The notes beneath the pieces are model-generated. The model worked only from the letters and a program-made list of their open reading frames with translations. It made no database searches and had not been told where the DNA came from. From positions 248,001 through 312,000 of the forward strand of contig JAVYIN010000003.1 in assembly GCA_035968315.1 (NCBI GenBank): a stretch of 64,000 nt of DNA, written 5' to 3'. Shown piece by piece: positions 1 through 31,727 of the stretch. The translations under genes were made by a program, and so were the position numbers. How positions within the stretch are numbered: position 1 is the stretch's first letter; every line of letters starts with the position of its first letter. The stretch is from Nitrospira sp. Its GTDB lineage: Bacteria; Nitrospirota; Nitrospiria; Nitrospirales; Nitrospiraceae.

Positions 1-429
1 ATCCATGTTGATCACTTCCACCGCATGCCCATTCCGCACGATCGTCATAAAGGGCAGAAACAAACAGTCGCGCGCCTCGATCAGGGGCACGGAAATTTCA
101 AACGGCTTGCCCGACTCCACCCCCTCCAGGAGCACGATCGCATCCTTCAACCCCGCATTCGGCCCGACCACAAAATCTCGGAGCAGCCGCCAGCCACGGC
201 CATTCGAGATGCGTCCGCAATAGGCCGGATCGGGAAAGGTAATCAGGTTGAAGCCCTTGGGCTCGGGAATCGGACCATCCAGCCGCACGACACCTTCGAT
301 GGATCCGCCATGCGGCACGTCCACCACTTCATATGCCGCCGCCGGCAACACACCAACCGCCAGAACCAGCAGCCAGAGGGCCGCTATCGCCGCCTTGCTT
401 GCCCGCTGCCAAACCGCCTTGCCATTCAC
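1..429 (-). CDS. Secreted cupredoxin-like / carboxypeptidase-regulatory-like protein (3' end outside window)
   Basis: The reading frame runs off the left edge, so only about 143 N-terminal residues are visible. I chose the GTG at 429 because GGAGG lies 8 bases upstream; an in-frame ATG at 444 is the alternative. The N-terminus is a clear signal peptide (hydrophobic WLLVLAVGVLPAAA, then YEVVDV). The mature part has GGSIEGVVRLDG followed by P-rich spacing and DPAYCG, a pattern of periplasmic beta-sandwich proteins related to cupredoxins and methylamine-utilization-type proteins. It lies just downstream of the multicopper oxidase on the same strand, so a partner role in copper or electron handling is plausible but is inference. 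Copper ligands expected near the C-terminus are not in view. Confidence 0.6.
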   Translation of the reverse strand, partial: MNGKAVWQRASKAAIAALWLLVLAVGVLPAAAYEVVDVPHGGSIEGVVRLDGPIPEPKGFNLITFPDPAYCGRISNGRGWRLLRDFVVGPNAGLKDAIVLLEGVESGKPFEISVPLIEARDCLFLPFMTIVRNGHAVEVINMD

Positions 430-487
430 CGCGTCGTCCTCCATCCGGATGTGAATTTGCACCGCGTCCGCATCGTATCAAAAGGCC

Positions 488-569: not shown

Positions 570-3500
570 TTACTTTACGGACACCGGGATCGCCATCGCC
601 GGCGGTTCAGCCGACGCGCTCTTCATCCCGGCCGCCGCTCCGTGCAGCGGCAAGAGCCGCTGATCGCCGGACGGCAACACCCGCACATACCCCCACTGGC
701 CGGACTGCGAGTACGGCAACCGCTGGTTGCTGTACACATAGTCGCCAGGCAGGCGATAGGGACCGCCCGCGGAGGGGATAAAGGCATCGATCGTCTCAGA
801 GCCGGAGAACTCCACGACACTGATCTGATCCGCGCCGCGCATGAAGGGCTCGATCGGCCACTCGTGCTTCTCGACGCTGAACATGCCGTTTTGTTCGTTG
901 CTCACACCCAGCACGTGAATGCGCACGGGATCGCCGGCATGCGCCTCGATCAGAGGCGTCGCGGGATCCTCGGGCTTGTCCGCCTTGCAAGGCTGGAACA
1001 CCTTGCCCAGCGAGCAGCCCTGCTCTTCACGGAACTTGTACGGCTCGGACCGGTAGTTCACACCGGTCAGGCCCGCCACGTTCTGCACATAGGGCATGAA
1101 GCTCGTGCCGATGATGTTGTCTTCGTCCTGGAAGAACAACGCCACGTCACGATAGTTCGGCCGGTTTTCCATGCCGGGCAACGAGTGATCGAGGATCACG
1201 TCGGCCGCCCAGGCATTCTTGTTCGTCAAATCGGCACCGGTCTTCGGATCGCGGTACTTGGCGCCCTTCGGGCCCACCACGATGGCGCCGAACAGCCCGT
1301 TGCGCGGATTGGTCATCGCATTGCCCCAATCCCACACCAACGAGGTCGTCTCGCCGTTGAACGGATCCGCGTAGTACGTATAGGTCCGCTCCGCGCCCGG
1401 CGCGATCGTCTGATCGCCGGGGTTCATGCCGATGTTGGCGCCCATCGAATCCTTCGGGTCGAACGCCAGCCCGATGGCCGAGAAGGACGCCTTGCTCTCC
1501 TTCATCTTGTTCTTCAGATTCACCTTCACGCAATCGCCCACGTTCACGCGGAGCGTGAGGGGCATCGGCTGCGCGCCGCTCGCCACCTTGGCGGTATCTT
1601 CCTCCAAGGCGTAGATCTTCGCGTCCGGATTGGTCATGAGGATCTTCCGCTCGAAGTCCACTTCGATGGTCTCAGGAGCCTTCGCGTTGAACTTCATGGA
1701 CGGATAATCCAGCGCCACCACATTGAACGACTTCACCGGAGCATCCGCCGGACACACCGGCAGGGCCTTCGGGATTTCGTTCTTCGTGGAGAAGCCCGAC
1801 GTGAGCTTCTTCAGATCGGCCTGTTCCTTGTCATACACGCGCACGATACCCCAACCGCCCTCGGAGAACTTTGAGGACCGGCCGTTGAAGTGAATGTAGT
1901 CGCCGGCCTGCAAGCGAGGCCCACCGGCCTGCGGCACCACGAGATCGTAGCGCTCCGCAATACCGACGTGCATCGAATTCTTGCGATTGGCGTCACCGGC
2001 ATAGCGCTCCGAGAGGAACGTATGGCCGGAAATCGTCCAGACCATCGACTCGTTCATGAGGGTATGCAGGAGACGGAATACCATCGTGTCTCCCACATAG
2101 GCCCTCAAGGTCGGCGTATAGGGATCGCCGTGGACGTTGCTGTTGAAGATCTGCGACGAATCAGGATTGGTCGCCAACCGCTGCGCGATCGGAGCCGCCC
2201 TGAAATTCAATCCGCTGCCGGTGGTGTGCGTGCCACCATTCAAGAACGGCATCGGCGTCATGTAGATCTTGTCCGGCATCATGAACGACACGGTCTTGCC
2301 GGCCTCGAGCGCCACTTCAATCGGCTGCCCGGGAGGATTGCCCGCGGTCACGACGTTGACGGTGTGCGGCACGGTGTCGTGCACCTGCACCATCAACTCA
2401 CGGAAGCTGTTGTTCACGCCATGACCCACCGGCTCGACGGTCCGGATGTCGGCGATGGGGCCGCTCCGCACTTCCTTGCCGGTCTTCGGATCATGATAGG
2501 TGGACCCGACCGGTTCGGCGATGAAGGTGCCGAACCCGCCGTGCGGCCAGGTGGTCGCGCCGAACGCATGGTCGTGCCAGAACACGGTGCCCACGTCCGC
2601 ATCGACCCAGAACCGCTGCCGGACGAACTCGACCGTCACGATGTCGTTCGCCGGATGGTCGTTCTTCAGGCCCTTCGCCAAGGTGATCGTGTTGCCGTTG
2701 ATCGCCTTGATGCGGGAGATTTCATTGCCCTTCACGTTATCGGCGCCCACCATGATGAGGGTGCCCACGTGATACTGCTTCGCGTTCTTCACCGTGATGC
2801 TGCTGGCGCCCTTCTTGGCCGCCGCCGTCAACGGCGTGTTCATCGGGGCCGGGAGGCCCTTCGGATTCTTCTTCTCCAGCATCGTGAACGGACGGACCGA
2901 CTGCTCATAGGAGAAGCCGGTGATCACGCCGTCCGACGCCTGGTTGTCGAACTGCAGGAAATGCCAATGGGTGTTGATCTTCGACGACTGGAAGTTCGTG
3001 TAGTCGTCGTCGTCCCATTCGCTGGTCAACGTCCAATCGAGGCAGTCATAGATGTTGCCGCGCACGACCAGCGGATACTTCAGGTCGTCGTTGGCGCGGA
3101 CCGCCGCCTCTTCTTCATGCAGCACATAGATCAACCCGTTCGGATCGACCACGGCCGGCTCCTTGCCCTGCGCCTTGGCGATCTTGATCGGCATCTTCAC
3201 GAAGTGGACATTGTAGTGCTTCCGTCCGGCATTCTCCGGGCAGAGGCTCCACACGCCGTTTTCTCCGGGCAAGGCCTGATCGACACTCTCGTCCCCGTTG
3301 GCATCCCGGCGGATCATCTCCAGCCAGGGCGCGCCGACGTGGTTCGGCGAGAACATCACGCGCCGGCCGAAGTGCGGCGTCAGATGCGGCCAGGCCACCT
3401 TGCCGGTCATCGGCTCGAACATGATCGGGTGCCGCTTGCCGGGGTGCGTGGACTTGTACTTGGGATTGTCGACTTCGCTCTCCCGTTCGCTCATCGCCAC

Positions 3501-5429
3501 GTTGCCGTTCCACGTCCAATCCAGGACGGTGGCATCGTACGACTGCGTCTGGCCCTTTTCGTCATCCTTGTGGCCAGGCTTGCCCATGGTGGGCAGCTGC
3601 ATGGCGACCCAATCCTTGATGTTGATGACGGCCGGGTTGCCCTTCCAATTGCTCTTGCCCTTGTCGGTAATCGTGAACTGCTTGCCGAACCAGTCCACGG
3701 TCTGGCCGATCAGCTTGTCCGACGCAATCGGGGTCTTGATGCGGCCCTTGCGGTCCGGCAACTCGCGGAGATCCGGCATCACGTCGTTCCGCAGATCGCC
3801 CTGCTGGATCGTGTTGTACACGCGCCAGTAGCCCCACATGCCCGCCACATAATGGTGCGCGACGTGGCAATGAAAGAGGAAGTCGCCGGCCAGCTGCTGG
3901 CAGAGACCGGACCCGCACTCGGTTTCGAGGTCGAGCGCTTCGGACGGCCCGATGACTTCCACGTCCACGCGGTCGGTCTTGGCGCGGATGACCGGATACT
4001 TGACCGGCCCGTTCGTGCTGGTCGCCCAGAGGTTCATGTCATCGATCGCCCGCGGGCTGCGCGGCCACCGGATCGTGCCTCCGTGCGGATGGTGGCTGTG
4101 GAACACTTCCGATCCACCGTGCACCAGGCGGAACTTCGCCGGGTCACCGATGTAGGAGCGGGGGATCGTCGGCGACGGATCGCCGAACGTATAGGAGCTG
4201 TACCCCATCGACTCATCCTCGAAGCCGAAGTACTCGTGCTGCACATGCATATTGTTGATGCCGAAGGGCTCGCTGCGATAGTTGATCGCGCGGCCACCCG
4301 GACGATAGGCGTCCGTCAACGGATCGCGCTGCGGCAAGAAGTCACCCTTCTTGTTCAGCGGACGGAAGGCCTCATCACCGACTTCATGGTAGTAGAGCAC
4401 GAATTCGCGGAAATCCGGGCCCGTGCCGTTCTTGATCATGACCTGCCAGCCGCTGCTGGCGGGGGTCGCATCCCCGCTGCCGAGGGCTTCCCAGTAGGAC
4501 GAGCCGCGCGGCTCGACGACGAAGGACCCGAACATGCCCATGACCGTGAGCTCACGGTCGTTGCTGAACGTATGGAACTGGCGCACGCCTTCCTGCGTGT
4601 TCGGGTGGATGTACCACTCGAAATCGCCGCTCTTATCCTTGGCGACGATCGTATCCGAGTTCGTCGTGGTCGCCGCGGCGCCCGTCGCGCTCACCACCAT
4701 GGATGAACCATGGATGTGGAGGCTGACCTCTTCGCCGCCTTCCAGCTTGTTGCTCAGCTTGATCTTGAGGCAATCGCCCTGGTTGGCGCGGATGGTCAGG
4801 GGTTGAATCCACTGGGCTTGCACGCCGGGAATGATGGCTCCGGGATCGAAACCTTCCTTCTCGCGCGCGGCCTTGTTCGTCGCCTCTTCCGCACGGACCT
4901 TGTCGAGGTTCTCATCGAGCACGTACATGTAGCCCGGATAGAAATCGAGCCACTGATTCAAGGTAATCTCGACGTTGATCGCGGACACGTTGTACTGCTT
5001 CACCGGCGCCGTCGCGGGGCACTTGCCGCCGCCGGTCATGGCCACCGGCTCAACGCGCGGATCGGACACCAGCAACATGTCCTGCCCGCCCGCACCGTAC
5101 TGGTGCATCATGGACTGGGTGTTGTACATGCCGGTGTTGACGCCTTGCACCTGCGGATCCTGGCTCATGTGCTCCATGATTCGCTGATGCTGCTGCTCGA
5201 CCATCGACGACCGCTCGCCCTTTCCGGACATCGCGTCTTCGACGATCGTCTGACCTTTGAGTTGTTCCGCCCACGCGGGAAGCTGATGATTCATCGCGAC
5301 TTGATGCGTCGCGTGACCAGCTGAACTGGAAGTCTCAGCCGATGCCAGCGGAGCCCCGAACAGGGCTACCGCTGCCATCATGCCGAGCATGCGGGTAGGT
5401 ACACTACCCCGTACCGTACGAAATAACAT
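570..5429 (-). CDS. Very large secreted multicopper oxidase with six cupredoxin domains
   Basis: This is a 1619-residue exported protein with an N-terminal signal peptide (MLGMMAAVALFGAPLASA). The start is supported by AAGGAGG upstream of ATG 5429. I can delimit six cupredoxin-like domains, roughly at residues 170-350, 370-590, 640-1010, 1030-1250, 1270-1440 and 1450-1600. Copper motifs are LHIHG near 239 (domain 1), HSHHPHGG near 445 and FHCHVAHHYVAGMW near 520 (domain 2; type-1 Cys with a Met-type axial ligand), and NTHWHF near 820 and FWHDHAF near 950 (domain 3). Domains 4-6 show no full set. Size and domain number resemble ceruloplasmin and MnxG-type manganese oxidases rather than three-domain laccases. 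It probably oxidises a metal or small reductant with O2 in the periplasm or at the cell surface; the substrate cannot be read from sequence. Confidence 0.85.
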   Translation of the reverse strand: MLFRTVRGSVPTRMLGMMAAVALFGAPLASAETSSSAGHATHQVAMNHQLPAWAEQLKGQTIVEDAMSGKGERSSMVEQQHQRIMEHMSQDPQVQGVNTGMYNTQSMMHQYGAGGQDMLLVSDPRVEPVAMTGGGKCPATAPVKQYNVSAINVEITLNQWLDFYPGYMYVLDENLDKVRAEEATNKAAREKEGFDPGAIIPGVQAQWIQPLTIRANQGDCLKIKLSNKLEGGEEVSLHIHGSSMVVSATGAAATTTNSDTIVAKDKSGDFEWYIHPNTQEGVRQFHTFSNDRELTVMGMFGSFVVEPRGSSYWEALGSGDATPASSGWQVMIKNGTGPDFREFVLYYHEVGDEAFRPLNKKGDFLPQRDPLTDAYRPGGRAINYRSEPFGINNMHVQHEYFGFEDESMGYSSYTFGDPSPTIPRSYIGDPAKFRLVHGGSEVFHSHHPHGGTIRWPRSPRAIDDMNLWATSTNGPVKYPVIRAKTDRVDVEVIGPSEALDLETECGSGLCQQLAGDFLFHCHVAHHYVAGMWGYWRVYNTIQQGDLRNDVMPDLRELPDRKGRIKTPIASDKLIGQTVDWFGKQFTITDKGKSNWKGNPAVINIKDWVAMQLPTMGKPGHKDDEKGQTQSYDATVLDWTWNGNVAMSERESEVDNPKYKSTHPGKRHPIMFEPMTGKVAWPHLTPHFGRRVMFSPNHVGAPWLEMIRRDANGDESVDQALPGENGVWSLCPENAGRKHYNVHFVKMPIKIAKAQGKEPAVVDPNGLIYVLHEEEAAVRANDDLKYPLVVRGNIYDCLDWTLTSEWDDDDYTNFQSSKINTHWHFLQFDNQASDGVITGFSYEQSVRPFTMLEKKNPKGLPAPMNTPLTAAAKKGASSITVKNAKQYHVGTLIMVGADNVKGNEISRIKAINGNTITLAKGLKNDHPANDIVTVEFVRQRFWVDADVGTVFWHDHAFGATTWPHGGFGTFIAEPVGSTYHDPKTGKEVRSGPIADIRTVEPVGHGVNNSFRELMVQVHDTVPHTVNVVTAGNPPGQPIEVALEAGKTVSFMMPDKIYMTPMPFLNGGTHTTGSGLNFRAAPIAQRLATNPDSSQIFNSNVHGDPYTPTLRAYVGDTMVFRLLHTLMNESMVWTISGHTFLSERYAGDANRKNSMHVGIAERYDLVVPQAGGPRLQAGDYIHFNGRSSKFSEGGWGIVRVYDKEQADLKKLTSGFSTKNEIPKALPVCPADAPVKSFNVVALDYPSMKFNAKAPETIEVDFERKILMTNPDAKIYALEEDTAKVASGAQPMPLTLRVNVGDCVKVNLKNKMKESKASFSAIGLAFDPKDSMGANIGMNPGDQTIAPGAERTYTYYADPFNGETTSLVWDWGNAMTNPRNGLFGAIVVGPKGAKYRDPKTGADLTNKNAWAADVILDHSLPGMENRPNYRDVALFFQDEDNIIGTSFMPYVQNVAGLTGVNYRSEPYKFREEQGCSLGKVFQPCKADKPEDPATPLIEAHAGDPVRIHVLGVSNEQNGMFSVEKHEWPIEPFMRGADQISVVEFSGSETIDAFIPSAGGPYRLPGDYVYSNQRLPYSQSGQWGYVRVLPSGDQRLLPLHGAAAGMKSASAEPPAMAIPVSVK

Positions 5430-10657: not shown

Positions 10658-12217
10658 TCACACCTCCCCCAATCTCACCGGCCCGAAGAGCTGGCGAGCC
10701 TGTTGAAGCTCCTTACTATGCCGCCGGAGGGCTGGGCCGAATTTGGATTGCAGCACGGCCTTGCGGTGGGGCGCGATGCTGCCTTCCACCTGATCGATCG
10801 CCTCTGTCAGCTGACCAACCATGCGGCGGCCTGAGCCGGTGAGCCAGCCCAGGTGATGATCCGCATAGTGCAGGTCTTGGAGGGAATACCGCACCGACTC
10901 CACCTCTTCCAAACAACGAAACCGCGCCCTGACCAAGTCGCGTGTCGTTAAACCTGCCTGGCGCCACGCCGCCGCCAGCCCCTCGCCCCACACAGACAAG
11001 CGCTCGAACAGCATCGCCCCCATCGTAAAGGTAAAGGAGGCATGCAGAATCCCGCGCAGCGGGCGCAGGCTCCGCCGCCAGGGCGAGTAGAAGATCTTCT
11101 GATTGTGGTCGCCGCGATACATGACATGCTTGCGCAGCAGCAGATTCAAATGGTGATGGCTGTTTTCATGGATCAGGTCGTCGATCAGATCCAGATTGTC
11201 CCGCTCGAAACAGTTGATGAAGGAGAGGCCCGGCCTGTGACGATAGCTGAAACTGACGACGCCGTTCGCATTCAGCGGCACGATATAGGACGTCAGCAGC
11301 GCCAAGACCTCATGCCCTTCCGGCCAGGCGTCGTGAATCGTTTCCCAGGCGCGTTGGATCCGCTCGACCTGCGCCGGGTCCGTGCCCACCACCTTCCGTG
11401 GCTGGCGGTCTTTCCCATAGGCCAAGGTCGGGCCGACCGTGACCGCGCCATAGGTGGTACAGAGCGCCACCGCGGCCGGACGCAGGGCCCAATGCCACTG
11501 GGCCTGCCCGCCAAGAGCGGACCAGACCGGCGAGAGGCTGCGCCCGGCCTTTATGGCAATCCCCTGCGCATCGACTCGGAACGTCGCTCGACCGGCGGCC
11601 TGCGCCAGCGCGCGTTTCAGCGCGAGCGGCGCCTCGCAGCAATCCCCCGCGACACCGAGGGGCACCGTGCCGGCCGCTTCCGCTTTTTCAAAGTTTTGCG
11701 CGAGGCTTCCTGGCACGTCCCAGTGCGGCATATTGCGGGCGCGGCACCAGGCCACCGCCGCCGCAGGATCGAGCCACAGCGACTCCTGTGCAATCTCCTG
11801 GGCGAGTCGTTTGCAAAGACCAGCCAATCTCCGGTCCAATCCACCGGTCTGCGGCTTGCCGTTGGGAAACAGCTCATCGAGATAGCTGTTCTCGAAAAAC
11901 TTCTCCTGGCATTCGGCGAACAATTGTTCGGCAAACTCCCGGCGGTCGGATTCCCCTCGCCACTGCTGCCAAATATCCAGGAAGTAGACCCAATCGTTCA
12001 GCGCCTCGATCCATCCCACGACTTTCCAATTGGACAACTGCTCCGCCTTGAGTGAGCGGCTGAGAAACTCCGCGTAGCCGGTCGGGAACGCAAGCTGTGA
12101 GGCCAGCTCCGGATAATCGTCTTGCAGCTCCCGACAGAGGTCCTGAAGCAGCCGCCGCATCGACACACGAAGCTCTCCGGTCAGTCGGGTCAAAATTTGT
12201 GCATCCAGTAAAGACAT
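10658..12217 (-). CDS. HExxH-motif peptide-modification protein (peptide beta-hydroxylase family)
   Basis: This is a 519-residue cytosolic protein. The C-terminal half carries DDLIHENSHHHLNLLL, an HExxH motif, followed about 20 residues later by YSPWRRSLRPLRGILH. The spacing and the PWR..RPL..GxxH block match the family annotated as HEXXH motif-containing putative peptide modification protein, members of which are now described as 2-oxoglutarate-dependent peptide beta-hydroxylases acting on RiPP precursors. The N-terminal 250 residues are not recognised. I found no obvious precursor peptide, radical SAM enzyme or exporter next to it, so its substrate is unknown. A metalloprotease is the alternative reading. 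Confidence 0.65.
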   Translation of the reverse strand: MSLLDAQILTRLTGELRVSMRRLLQDLCRELQDDYPELASQLAFPTGYAEFLSRSLKAEQLSNWKVVGWIEALNDWVYFLDIWQQWRGESDRREFAEQLFAECQEKFFENSYLDELFPNGKPQTGGLDRRLAGLCKRLAQEIAQESLWLDPAAAVAWCRARNMPHWDVPGSLAQNFEKAEAAGTVPLGVAGDCCEAPLALKRALAQAAGRATFRVDAQGIAIKAGRSLSPVWSALGGQAQWHWALRPAAVALCTTYGAVTVGPTLAYGKDRQPRKVVGTDPAQVERIQRAWETIHDAWPEGHEVLALLTSYIVPLNANGVVSFSYRHRPGLSFINCFERDNLDLIDDLIHENSHHHLNLLLRKHVMYRGDHNQKIFYSPWRRSLRPLRGILHASFTFTMGAMLFERLSVWGEGLAAAWRQAGLTTRDLVRARFRCLEEVESVRYSLQDLHYADHHLGWLTGSGRRMVGQLTEAIDQVEGSIAPHRKAVLQSKFGPALRRHSKELQQARQLFGPVRLGEV

Positions 12218-29894: not shown

Positions 29895-31727
29895 ATGCGT
29901 TATTCCTTCGCTCTTATCGTCGCGCTGACCAGCCTCACAGCCGGCTGCGCCAGCCGATTCGACTTCCCGCCTCTCGGGGATCCTCTTCCCATCTCAGCCA
30001 CACTCACCATCCCCGCTTCCATCAAAGAACTGCGCGCGGACTATATGGATCTCTGCGGGCATCCGATGCGGGAACCGCTGGGAACCCGATTGGACGCCGC
30101 GCTGATCGAGGCGTCCTCCCGAACCTTTCAATCGGTCACCTATGGAGAAAAGAGCGGGAACGCTGCCGCAGCGCTCGTGCACTTCGATTTGGCGGACTGG
30201 TCCTTTCAGCTTCAGCATGACAGAACAGAGAAACCGGGCACGGCACATATTCAATTGCATGTGCGAATCCGGGTAAGTGATCACACCGGAACGCTTTTGC
30301 GCGCATCCGATATCCTGGTGACCCGGCAAGCGCCCCTGCGCCTCGAGCCCGTGCAGGATGAATGCGCGTACAGACTTGATCCGCTGCTCCAAGAGGTCTC
30401 CGTGGAACTGGCGACGAAATTCGCCATGGAGGCTCGACAGGCTTTCAGCGGTCTGTTGCCGGCCAAACTCACGACAGGCCTGACGCCCCCCCCGCCGGCC
30501 TCTCCGGTCCCAACGGCTCCGAGCCCGGCCGCAGCGGCAACGCTTCCGTCGAAGGTGCGTTTCACCTCCATGCTGCTGGACGAGAACGGCTCCCTCACGC
30601 TTGAAGGTGGAGAACGCTTTCGCGTGCGCGTGGATGTGGCCAACACGGGATCCACTCCGGTTCACCAAGCCCGTGTGCTGCTCTCGGGCCCGGACGCACT
30701 GTTACGCCTGTTTCCCTCCACCTCGCTCACACTTCCCCCCCTTCAACCAGGCGAGGTGAAATCCGTCGAGTTCCTGGCCACGCTCCCGCCCGCAATCCCT
30801 TTGAAAAAAGCCGAGCTGCAGGTGACGGTCGAAGAATCCGCGACACAAGCACAAGCCCAAGCCCCCGCACAGATACTGGCCATCGCCCTACAACCGACCG
30901 GCATCAAAGCCGACGACGTCGATCAGATCCCGGCGGCGGCCATGGAGTTTCGCCAGCCGCAGACCTACCTCATCTCCATCGGTGTCAGCTCATACCGGGA
31001 TCAGCGGCTCTTACCGCGAACATTTGCCTCGCTGGATGCCGAGATGGTCGCCGCCTATTTCATAGCGCTGGGGGGCCTTCCCGCATCGAATGTACGCGTG
31101 CTTCAAGATTGGACTGCCTCCCGATCCAATATCGACGAAGCCCTCTTAACCTGGCTTCCACCACAGATGACGAAAGAGGCCGTCGTCATCGTCTACTTCT
31201 CCGGCCAAGCCATGGTAGACCATGACGGCACGGTGCTCCTTGTCCCTTACGACGGAAGCCCGACGGCCACGACCCGTATGTATTCCCTGAAGGATTTGGA
31301 GTCGGCGCTGTCCCGTCTGAAAGCCAAGCACACGATCTTGCTCTTCGATGGAATGGTTTCGCGGCTTCATAGCGATCCCAAGACCAAACACCTGCCTCCC
31401 CGCTGGGACAGTGGCGGGGCCTCCACGATTCGCCTGATCAGCGGGGAAGCCCTCGGCGCAGGCCTTGAGGACGACAAGCATCACCACGGACTCTTTACCT
31501 ACTATCTCTTGCGGGCCTTGCGCGGAGAAGCAGATTCAAACCGGGATGGCGCGGTGACACTGGGAGAACTGTCCGGCTACGTCAGCCAAAAAGTTGTATG
31601 GGCGGCAAAAACCCAATTTGCCGTGGACCAACATCCGTCTCTGTTTCCCTCGGCCAAATCGGATCATCTTCCCTCGGCCCTTGTGCTCAGCAAGCTGGCC
31701 GCCATTCGCGGAGAGCCCGTTCCGTAA
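29895..31727 (+). CDS. Lipoprotein with CARDB-like domain and catalytically dead caspase-like domain
   Basis: This 610-residue protein begins with a lipoprotein signal (VALTSLTAGC, Cys at 18). Residues about 215-330 form a CARDB-like beta-sandwich (VRVDVANTGSTPVHQARVLL). Residues about 355-600 have the C14 caspase/metacaspase fold: YLISIGVSSYRD, then VIVYFSGQAM where active enzymes have FSGHG, then ILLFDGMVSR where active enzymes have D-x-C. The catalytic His is replaced by Q438 and the Cys by M487. The substrate-side TTYRYSL-type segments remain. It is likely a non-catalytic binding or scaffold protein of the envelope. Confidence 0.75.
   Translation: MRYSFALIVALTSLTAGCASRFDFPPLGDPLPISATLTIPASIKELRADYMDLCGHPMREPLGTRLDAALIEASSRTFQSVTYGEKSGNAAAALVHFDLADWSFQLQHDRTEKPGTAHIQLHVRIRVSDHTGTLLRASDILVTRQAPLRLEPVQDECAYRLDPLLQEVSVELATKFAMEARQAFSGLLPAKLTTGLTPPPPASPVPTAPSPAAAATLPSKVRFTSMLLDENGSLTLEGGERFRVRVDVANTGSTPVHQARVLLSGPDALLRLFPSTSLTLPPLQPGEVKSVEFLATLPPAIPLKKAELQVTVEESATQAQAQAPAQILAIALQPTGIKADDVDQIPAAAMEFRQPQTYLISIGVSSYRDQRLLPRTFASLDAEMVAAYFIALGGLPASNVRVLQDWTASRSNIDEALLTWLPPQMTKEAVVIVYFSGQAMVDHDGTVLLVPYDGSPTATTRMYSLKDLESALSRLKAKHTILLFDGMVSRLHSDPKTKHLPPRWDSGGASTIRLISGEALGAGLEDDKHHHGLFTYYLLRALRGEADSNRDGAVTLGELSGYVSQKVVWAAKTQFAVDQHPSLFPSAKSDHLPSALVLSKLAAIRGEPVP

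Follow-up and report, generated by a model that had tools for sequence, protein, structure and literature searches.

Near one end of the window (the whole stretch of 64,000 nucleotides that was analysed), a single uninterrupted open reading frame of 1,619 codons raises three linked questions: where a six-domain multicopper oxidase would hold its copper, whether that arrangement is unusual, and what the enzyme might oxidise. The frame is stable among close relatives, with same-length orthologues in sister genomes at 95–96% identity over its full length. We consider it likely (probability roughly 0.82) that it encodes an MnxG-type six-domain multicopper oxidase acting in the periplasm of a nitrite-oxidising Nitrospira and holding its trinuclear cluster at the junction of domains 2 and 3. 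The reading frame, its domains, ligands and kinship and the conserved partner gene are shown here; that copper is bound, that the enzyme works as an oxidase, what it oxidises and where it resides are what we infer. Coordinates are collected in Table 1.

Table 1 Features of the oxidase gene, its downstream neighbour and its paralogues. Coordinates refer to the window unless a contig or locus is named.
Feature	Position	Strand	Basis
Predicted MnxG-type six-domain multicopper oxidase, 1619 aa	570..5429	-	ORF and homology
Predicted Sec-type signal peptide, residues 1-31, PLASA/ET	5337..5429	-	by eye from sequence
Domain 1, residues 143-308, without conserved Cu ligands	4506..5003	-	conservation, hhalign
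HIH (H238, H240) in LHIHG (residues 237-241), domain 1, probably vestigial	4710..4718	-	not conserved
Domain 2, residues 338-545, predicted type-1 Cu and half of trinuclear cluster	3795..4418	-	conservation, hhalign
Domain 2 L3, HSHHPH (HxxHxH, 444-449): H444 assigned to type 1; H447, H449 to trinuclear	4083..4100	-	conservation; aligns with MnxG HSFHYH
Domain 2 L4, HCHVAHHYVAGM (HCHxxxHxxxxM, 520-531): H520, H522 assigned to trinuclear; C521, H526, M531 to type 1	3837..3872	-	invariant in 73
Domain 3, residues 735-975, predicted other trinuclear half-cluster	2505..3227	-	conservation, hhalign
Domain 3 L1, HWH (H821, H823), assigned to trinuclear	2961..2969	-	invariant in 73; aligns with MnxG HIH
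Domain 3 L2, HDH (H952, H954), assigned to trinuclear	2568..2576	-	invariant in 73; aligns with MnxG HDH
Domain 4, residues 1007-1202, without Cu set	1824..2411	-	ligand table, hhalign
Domain 5, residues 1228-1388, without Cu set	1266..1748	-	ligand table, hhalign
Domain 6, residues 1424-1590, without Cu set	660..1160	-	ligand table, hhalign
P0002, 324-aa secreted plastocyanin/amicyanin-like cupredoxin, directly downstream	1..462, on to L038:17488-18462 outside the window	-	conserved His, CxxHxxM
Paralogue 1 (the window gene)	G000:C3
Paralogue 2, 68% identity	C6:151320-156191		two FGE-sulfatase-like neighbours, not cupredoxin
Paralogues 3 and 4, about 55% identity, close together	C5:144294-148850, C5:153079-157515		cupredoxin neighbour each

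Domain plan and copper ligands

Pfam recognised only fragments of the oxidase, namely Cu-oxidase_3 in domain 1 and Cu-oxidase_2 around the HCH motif of domain 2. Profile–profile comparison of the inferred domains with hhalign bore out the six domains proposed in an earlier, sequence-only reading: domains 1, 3 and 5 matched one another (E = 6e-6 to 3e-13), as did domains 2, 4 and 6 (E = 2.5e-5 to 1e-16), and no odd-versus-even match among the six was significant. Since matches occurred only within these two groups, the six domains form three tandem odd/even pairs, which is the plan of ceruloplasmin-like rings. The predicted signal peptide is followed by a conserved leader rich in Met, His and Gln (residues 32–134), and the protein is predicted to be secreted, with a presumed location in the periplasm. 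Domain 3 carries an insertion of ~100 residues between its two HxH motifs (approximately residues 850–945; window 2,595–2,882, minus strand).

Ligands were assigned to the type-1 site or to the trinuclear cluster according to the usual motif pattern of multicopper oxidases. On the level of residues, trinuclear ligands were found in domains 2 and 3 and type-1 ligands in domain 2 only. Eleven of the 12 ligands in these domains are invariant across 73 full-length homologues and the remaining one, H444, is His in 72 of the 73; all 12 align with the MnxG of Priestia and with a Streptomyces homologue, and the host genome's three other paralogues retain the full set. Judged from these alignments, the ligand pattern is far beyond chance, and by homology the trinuclear cluster is placed at the domain 2/3 interface, where ligand conservation and the alignment with MnxG agree with the earlier proposal. 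Domains 4–6, likewise as proposed, appear devoid of copper ligands, as ligand tabulation found neither a Cys in any type-1 position nor an HxH pair in them. The motifs named in the sequence-only reading (LHIHG, HxxHxH, HCHxxxH, HWH and HDH) are all present, but LHIHG does not hold up as a copper site: H238 is His in 60 of 73 homologues and H240 in 56 of 73, and both give way to Asn, Gln or other residues in paralogues and many homologues. Because this domain-1 pair is not conserved, it is not a required ligand and probably not a copper site at all; LHIHG was rejected as a second half-cluster for the same reason.

A predicted structure of domains 1–4 (1,092 aa, 35 sequences) reached a mean pLDDT of 57, most of domains 2 and 4 scoring under 30, and is too poor for ligand distances. 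Foldseek with this low-confidence model returned MnxG as the best match (E = 2.3e-35), followed by factor V and ceruloplasmin (E = 1e-9 to 4e-9), a result that we take as only supportive.

Kinship with MnxG and distribution in Nitrospiria

Searches against solved structures separated MnxG sharply from all other matches. The sole near-full-length solved homologue is Bacillus MnxG (PDB 9bxa), found at E = 1e-82 with phmmer, with a two-domain laccase next at ~1e-4, and at E = 3.1e-116 in a profile search, with the next match at 7e-7; the phmmer values support the suggested kinship with metal-oxidising six-domain oxidases as opposed to phenol laccases. The entry is titled ‘Structure of Mnx H340A complex from Bacillus sp. 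PL-12’, and the Ala at position 340 aligns with H526. The motifs recur in their respective domains in Priestia megaterium MnxG (HSFHYH, HCHLYPHFGEGM, HVH and HDH), whose gene has small hypothetical genes upstream of it, an arrangement also known from the Bacillus mnx operon; tblastn with the putative Priestia E and F proteins, queries too small and diverged for a firm negative, gave nothing credible in the window or in seven stretches from its own genome. Further afield, a homologue on a Streptomyces plasmid shares 30% identity with 90% of the query covered. The Pseudomonas putida MnxG model (NCBIfam NF041487) matched in seven stretches (E = 1.4e-39), with 134.9 bits against a curated cut-off of 3100, which places the oxidase outside the Pseudomonas-type equivalog. 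It also falls outside the ceruloplasmin/hephaestin family, since neither domain 1 nor domain 6 has a conserved His pair, and outside the three-domain laccases, having six domains with ligands in domains 2 and 3. By its sequence, the oxidase is a member of the known MnxG-like bacterial six-domain type; no biochemistry for this oxidase clade was found in the literature searched.

The host genome comprises 3.1 Mb in 11 contigs, and the named organisms most closely related to it are Nitrospira species, N. moscoviensis and Ca. N. defluvii among them, as had been supposed from the sequence; the Ca. N. defluvii counterpart is 89% identical to the window gene. Four paralogous six-domain oxidases, all with full ligand sets, are encoded in this one genome. 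Across the phylum, 120 of 296 sampled genomes gave a match to the oxidase type, all but six of them in the host’s class and those six weak, and among the non-matching genomes listed (the first 20 of 176) all lie outside that class. The type is apparently present in all ~114 sampled genomes of the host’s class and, within the phylum, is all but confined to it. An order-level sample gave matches in 97 of 99 genomes. A Nitrospirales-type six-domain oxidase (70% identity) was also seen in MAG OFTM84, which is labelled Opitutales, through either a misbinned contig or lateral transfer.

Nitrite oxidoreductase appeared to be absent from the host genome. A true lack of the enzyme was rejected, given that pieces covering the N-terminal 57 residues of NxrA lie exactly at the ends of two host contigs (G000:C8:2-172 and G000:C7:544431-544601), and the nxr copies were probably cut by assembly. 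The assembly’s completeness value of 99.97% would thus mask the loss of the key metabolic gene; NxrB matches are missing in several relatives too. In N. moscoviensis, one stretch (L127, 4,262,001–4,282,000) carries in series on one strand nxrA-nxrB, a sigma-54 activator, a 338-aa Cu-oxidase-domain protein and a six-domain oxidase paralogue, the last ~4 kb from nxrAB.

Cupredoxin partner and candidate substrates

The oxidase gene is followed on the same strand by genes for P0002, whose C-terminal part is carboxypeptidase-regulatory-like, a 214-aa secreted protein, a HEAT-repeat protein, a second cupredoxin-like protein and a DUF420 protein, in a run that also includes two bd-oxidase-like subunits, an FGE-type protein and cytochromes c. 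Of 64 loci with sufficient sequence, 54 have a P0002 homologue 3' of the oxidase, on the same strand and no more than 1.5 kb away, often as two tandem copies; such a homologue also follows the oxidase in 29 of 33 loci of a second set that overlaps in part with the first. The P0002 homologue of N. moscoviensis was modelled (pLDDT 83), and its fold resembles those of plastocyanin, amicyanin and a Nitrosopumilus cupredoxin; His146, Cys207, His210 and Met213 are conserved among the homologues; P0002 is most likely a type-1 copper protein, and its co-location with the oxidase suggests that the two may exchange electrons. Elsewhere in the window, an aKG-HExxH-type peptide beta-hydroxylase domain occurs in the product of 10,658–12,217 (minus strand; NCBIfam TIGR04267, E = 1.5e-19, no Pfam match), and a caspase-like (Peptidase_C14) domain in a protein of 610 aa (29,895–31,727, plus strand).

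Oxidase chemistry is established for multicopper oxidases with a full ligand set, and it is assigned here on that knowledge together with the full set present. Electrons would enter singly at the sole type-1 copper in domain 2 (H444, C521, H526 and M531) and pass through the His-Cys-His bridge (H520/H522) to the trinuclear cluster, which would be formed by domain 2 (H447, H449, H520 and H522) and domain 3 (H821, H823, H952 and H954) and reduce O2 to water; domains 1 and 4–6 would serve as copper-free scaffold. The likeliest electron donors would be a metal ion, either Mn(II), as for Bacillus MnxG, or Fe(II), or else the downstream cupredoxin, which could alternatively act as an electron relay or a copper supplier. 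Oxidation of Mn or Fe, as the sequence-only reading had suggested, is a fair hypothesis, and one already put forward for Nitrospira and Nitrospina (PMC3578206).

Three alternatives differ from the preferred reading in substrate and role only; among substrates, Mn(II) and the cupredoxin seem about equally likely, with iron or copper below them. An MnxG-like oxidase was described in Nitrospina and Ca. N. defluvii by Lücker et al. 2013, who proposed that it protects against oxygen radicals by way of Mn(III) (PMC3578206). Applied here, the oxidase would convert Mn(II) to Mn(III), which clears superoxide in cells without superoxide dismutase and catalase. Kinship to MnxG speaks for this proposal, as does the host genome, where a search limited to Fe/Mn-SOD and catalase found its controls but no match to either enzyme. 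Against it, four paralogues and a conserved cupredoxin partner suggest more than a simple protective role; we hold it only tentatively. We are equally reserved about a cupredoxin-coupled periplasmic oxidase, or electron sink, tied to the nitrite-oxidation chain, in which the downstream cupredoxin would feed the type-1 copper. The frequent and often doubled cupredoxin gene beside the oxidase, the bd-like oxidases, cytochromes c and second cupredoxin of the same gene run, and the nxrAB genes beside an oxidase paralogue in N. moscoviensis are all consistent with such coupling, but co-location is no proof of electron transfer, and O2 reduction in the periplasm would waste energy for a nitrite oxidiser. 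The stronger form of this idea appears unlikely to us, namely that the MnxG-type oxidase of Nitrospiria does not act on metals but is a dedicated cupredoxin:O2 oxidoreductase tied to the nitrite-oxidation chain, its paralogues having specialised for different loci (nxr-linked, bd-like-oxidase-linked and FGE-linked). A role in metal detoxification through oxidation of iron or Cu(I), in the manner of ceruloplasmin/FOX1 or CueO, is similarly doubtful: algal FOX1 also has a domain 2/3 cluster (PMC3600357), and the axial Met and the Met/His-rich leader would fit, but no copper-resistance operon was recognised around the window gene and the closest characterised relative oxidises Mn.

Returning to the preferred reading of an MnxG-type periplasmic oxidase, its importance lies in breadth, as the type is apparently class-wide, falls into several paralogous clades and usually stands beside a cupredoxin gene. 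If Mn(II) is oxidised, nitrite-oxidising Nitrospira would have gone unrecognised as a source of Mn(III/IV); if the cupredoxin is the electron donor, the electron chain of nitrifiers would have a branch, formed by these oxidases, that has been overlooked.

Comparison with known six-domain oxidases

In a three-fold ring, the 2/3, 4/5 and 6/1 interfaces are geometrically equivalent, and a domain 2/3 cluster is equivalent to that at the ceruloplasmin 6/1 interface moved round the ring. The evolutionary scheme of Vasin, Klotchenko and Puchkova 2013 also treats these interfaces as equivalent, and their analysis places the trinuclear site in domains 2 and 3 of the Chlamydomonas and Dunaliella ferroxidases and of all bacterial six-domain oxidases analysed, with mononuclear sites of the latter in domain 2 only and leftover ligands of lost sites persisting in other domains (PMC3600357). 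Since this published placement already accounts for the 2/3 ring, for a half that is scaffold and for a vestigial pair in domain 1, the arrangement is not new, and the ‘rearranged ring’ that the sequence-only reading took to be unusual is the norm for bacterial six-domain oxidases. Both the arrangement and its occurrence in Nitrospira are thus already published (PMC3600357 and PMC3578206); new here are the four paralogues in this genome, the near-universality in the class Nitrospiria and the cupredoxin gene downstream in most loci.

With ceruloplasmin and hephaestin, the Nitrospira oxidase shares six cupredoxin domains, a three-fold ring and a cluster at the junction of an even domain with the odd one that follows, but in those proteins the cluster joins domains 6 and 1 and type-1 copper occupies domains 2, 4 and 6, whereas here the predicted cluster joins domains 2 and 3 and a single type-1 site is expected. 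MnxG of Bacillus sp. PL-12 and Priestia is closer: it too has six domains and no ligands in domains 4–6, its one type-1 site lies in domain 2 and its trinuclear ligands are divided between domains 2 and 3, with every ligand position aligning. Identity to MnxG is nevertheless low, and the Nitrospira protein, at 1,619 aa against about 1,220, is ~400 residues longer, its extras being the signal peptide and leader, a linker and the domain-3 insertion, which is absent from the alignment to Bacillus MnxG; no genes for the MnxE and MnxF of the Mnx complex were recognised beside it, and its conserved neighbour is a cupredoxin gene instead. A neighbourhood of the same kind as that of the window gene is the cluster in Nitrospina gracilis and Ca. 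N. defluvii (Lücker et al. 2013), where two cupredoxin-like proteins, a bd-like oxidase and cytochromes c are encoded together with the MnxG-like oxidase (PMC3578206).
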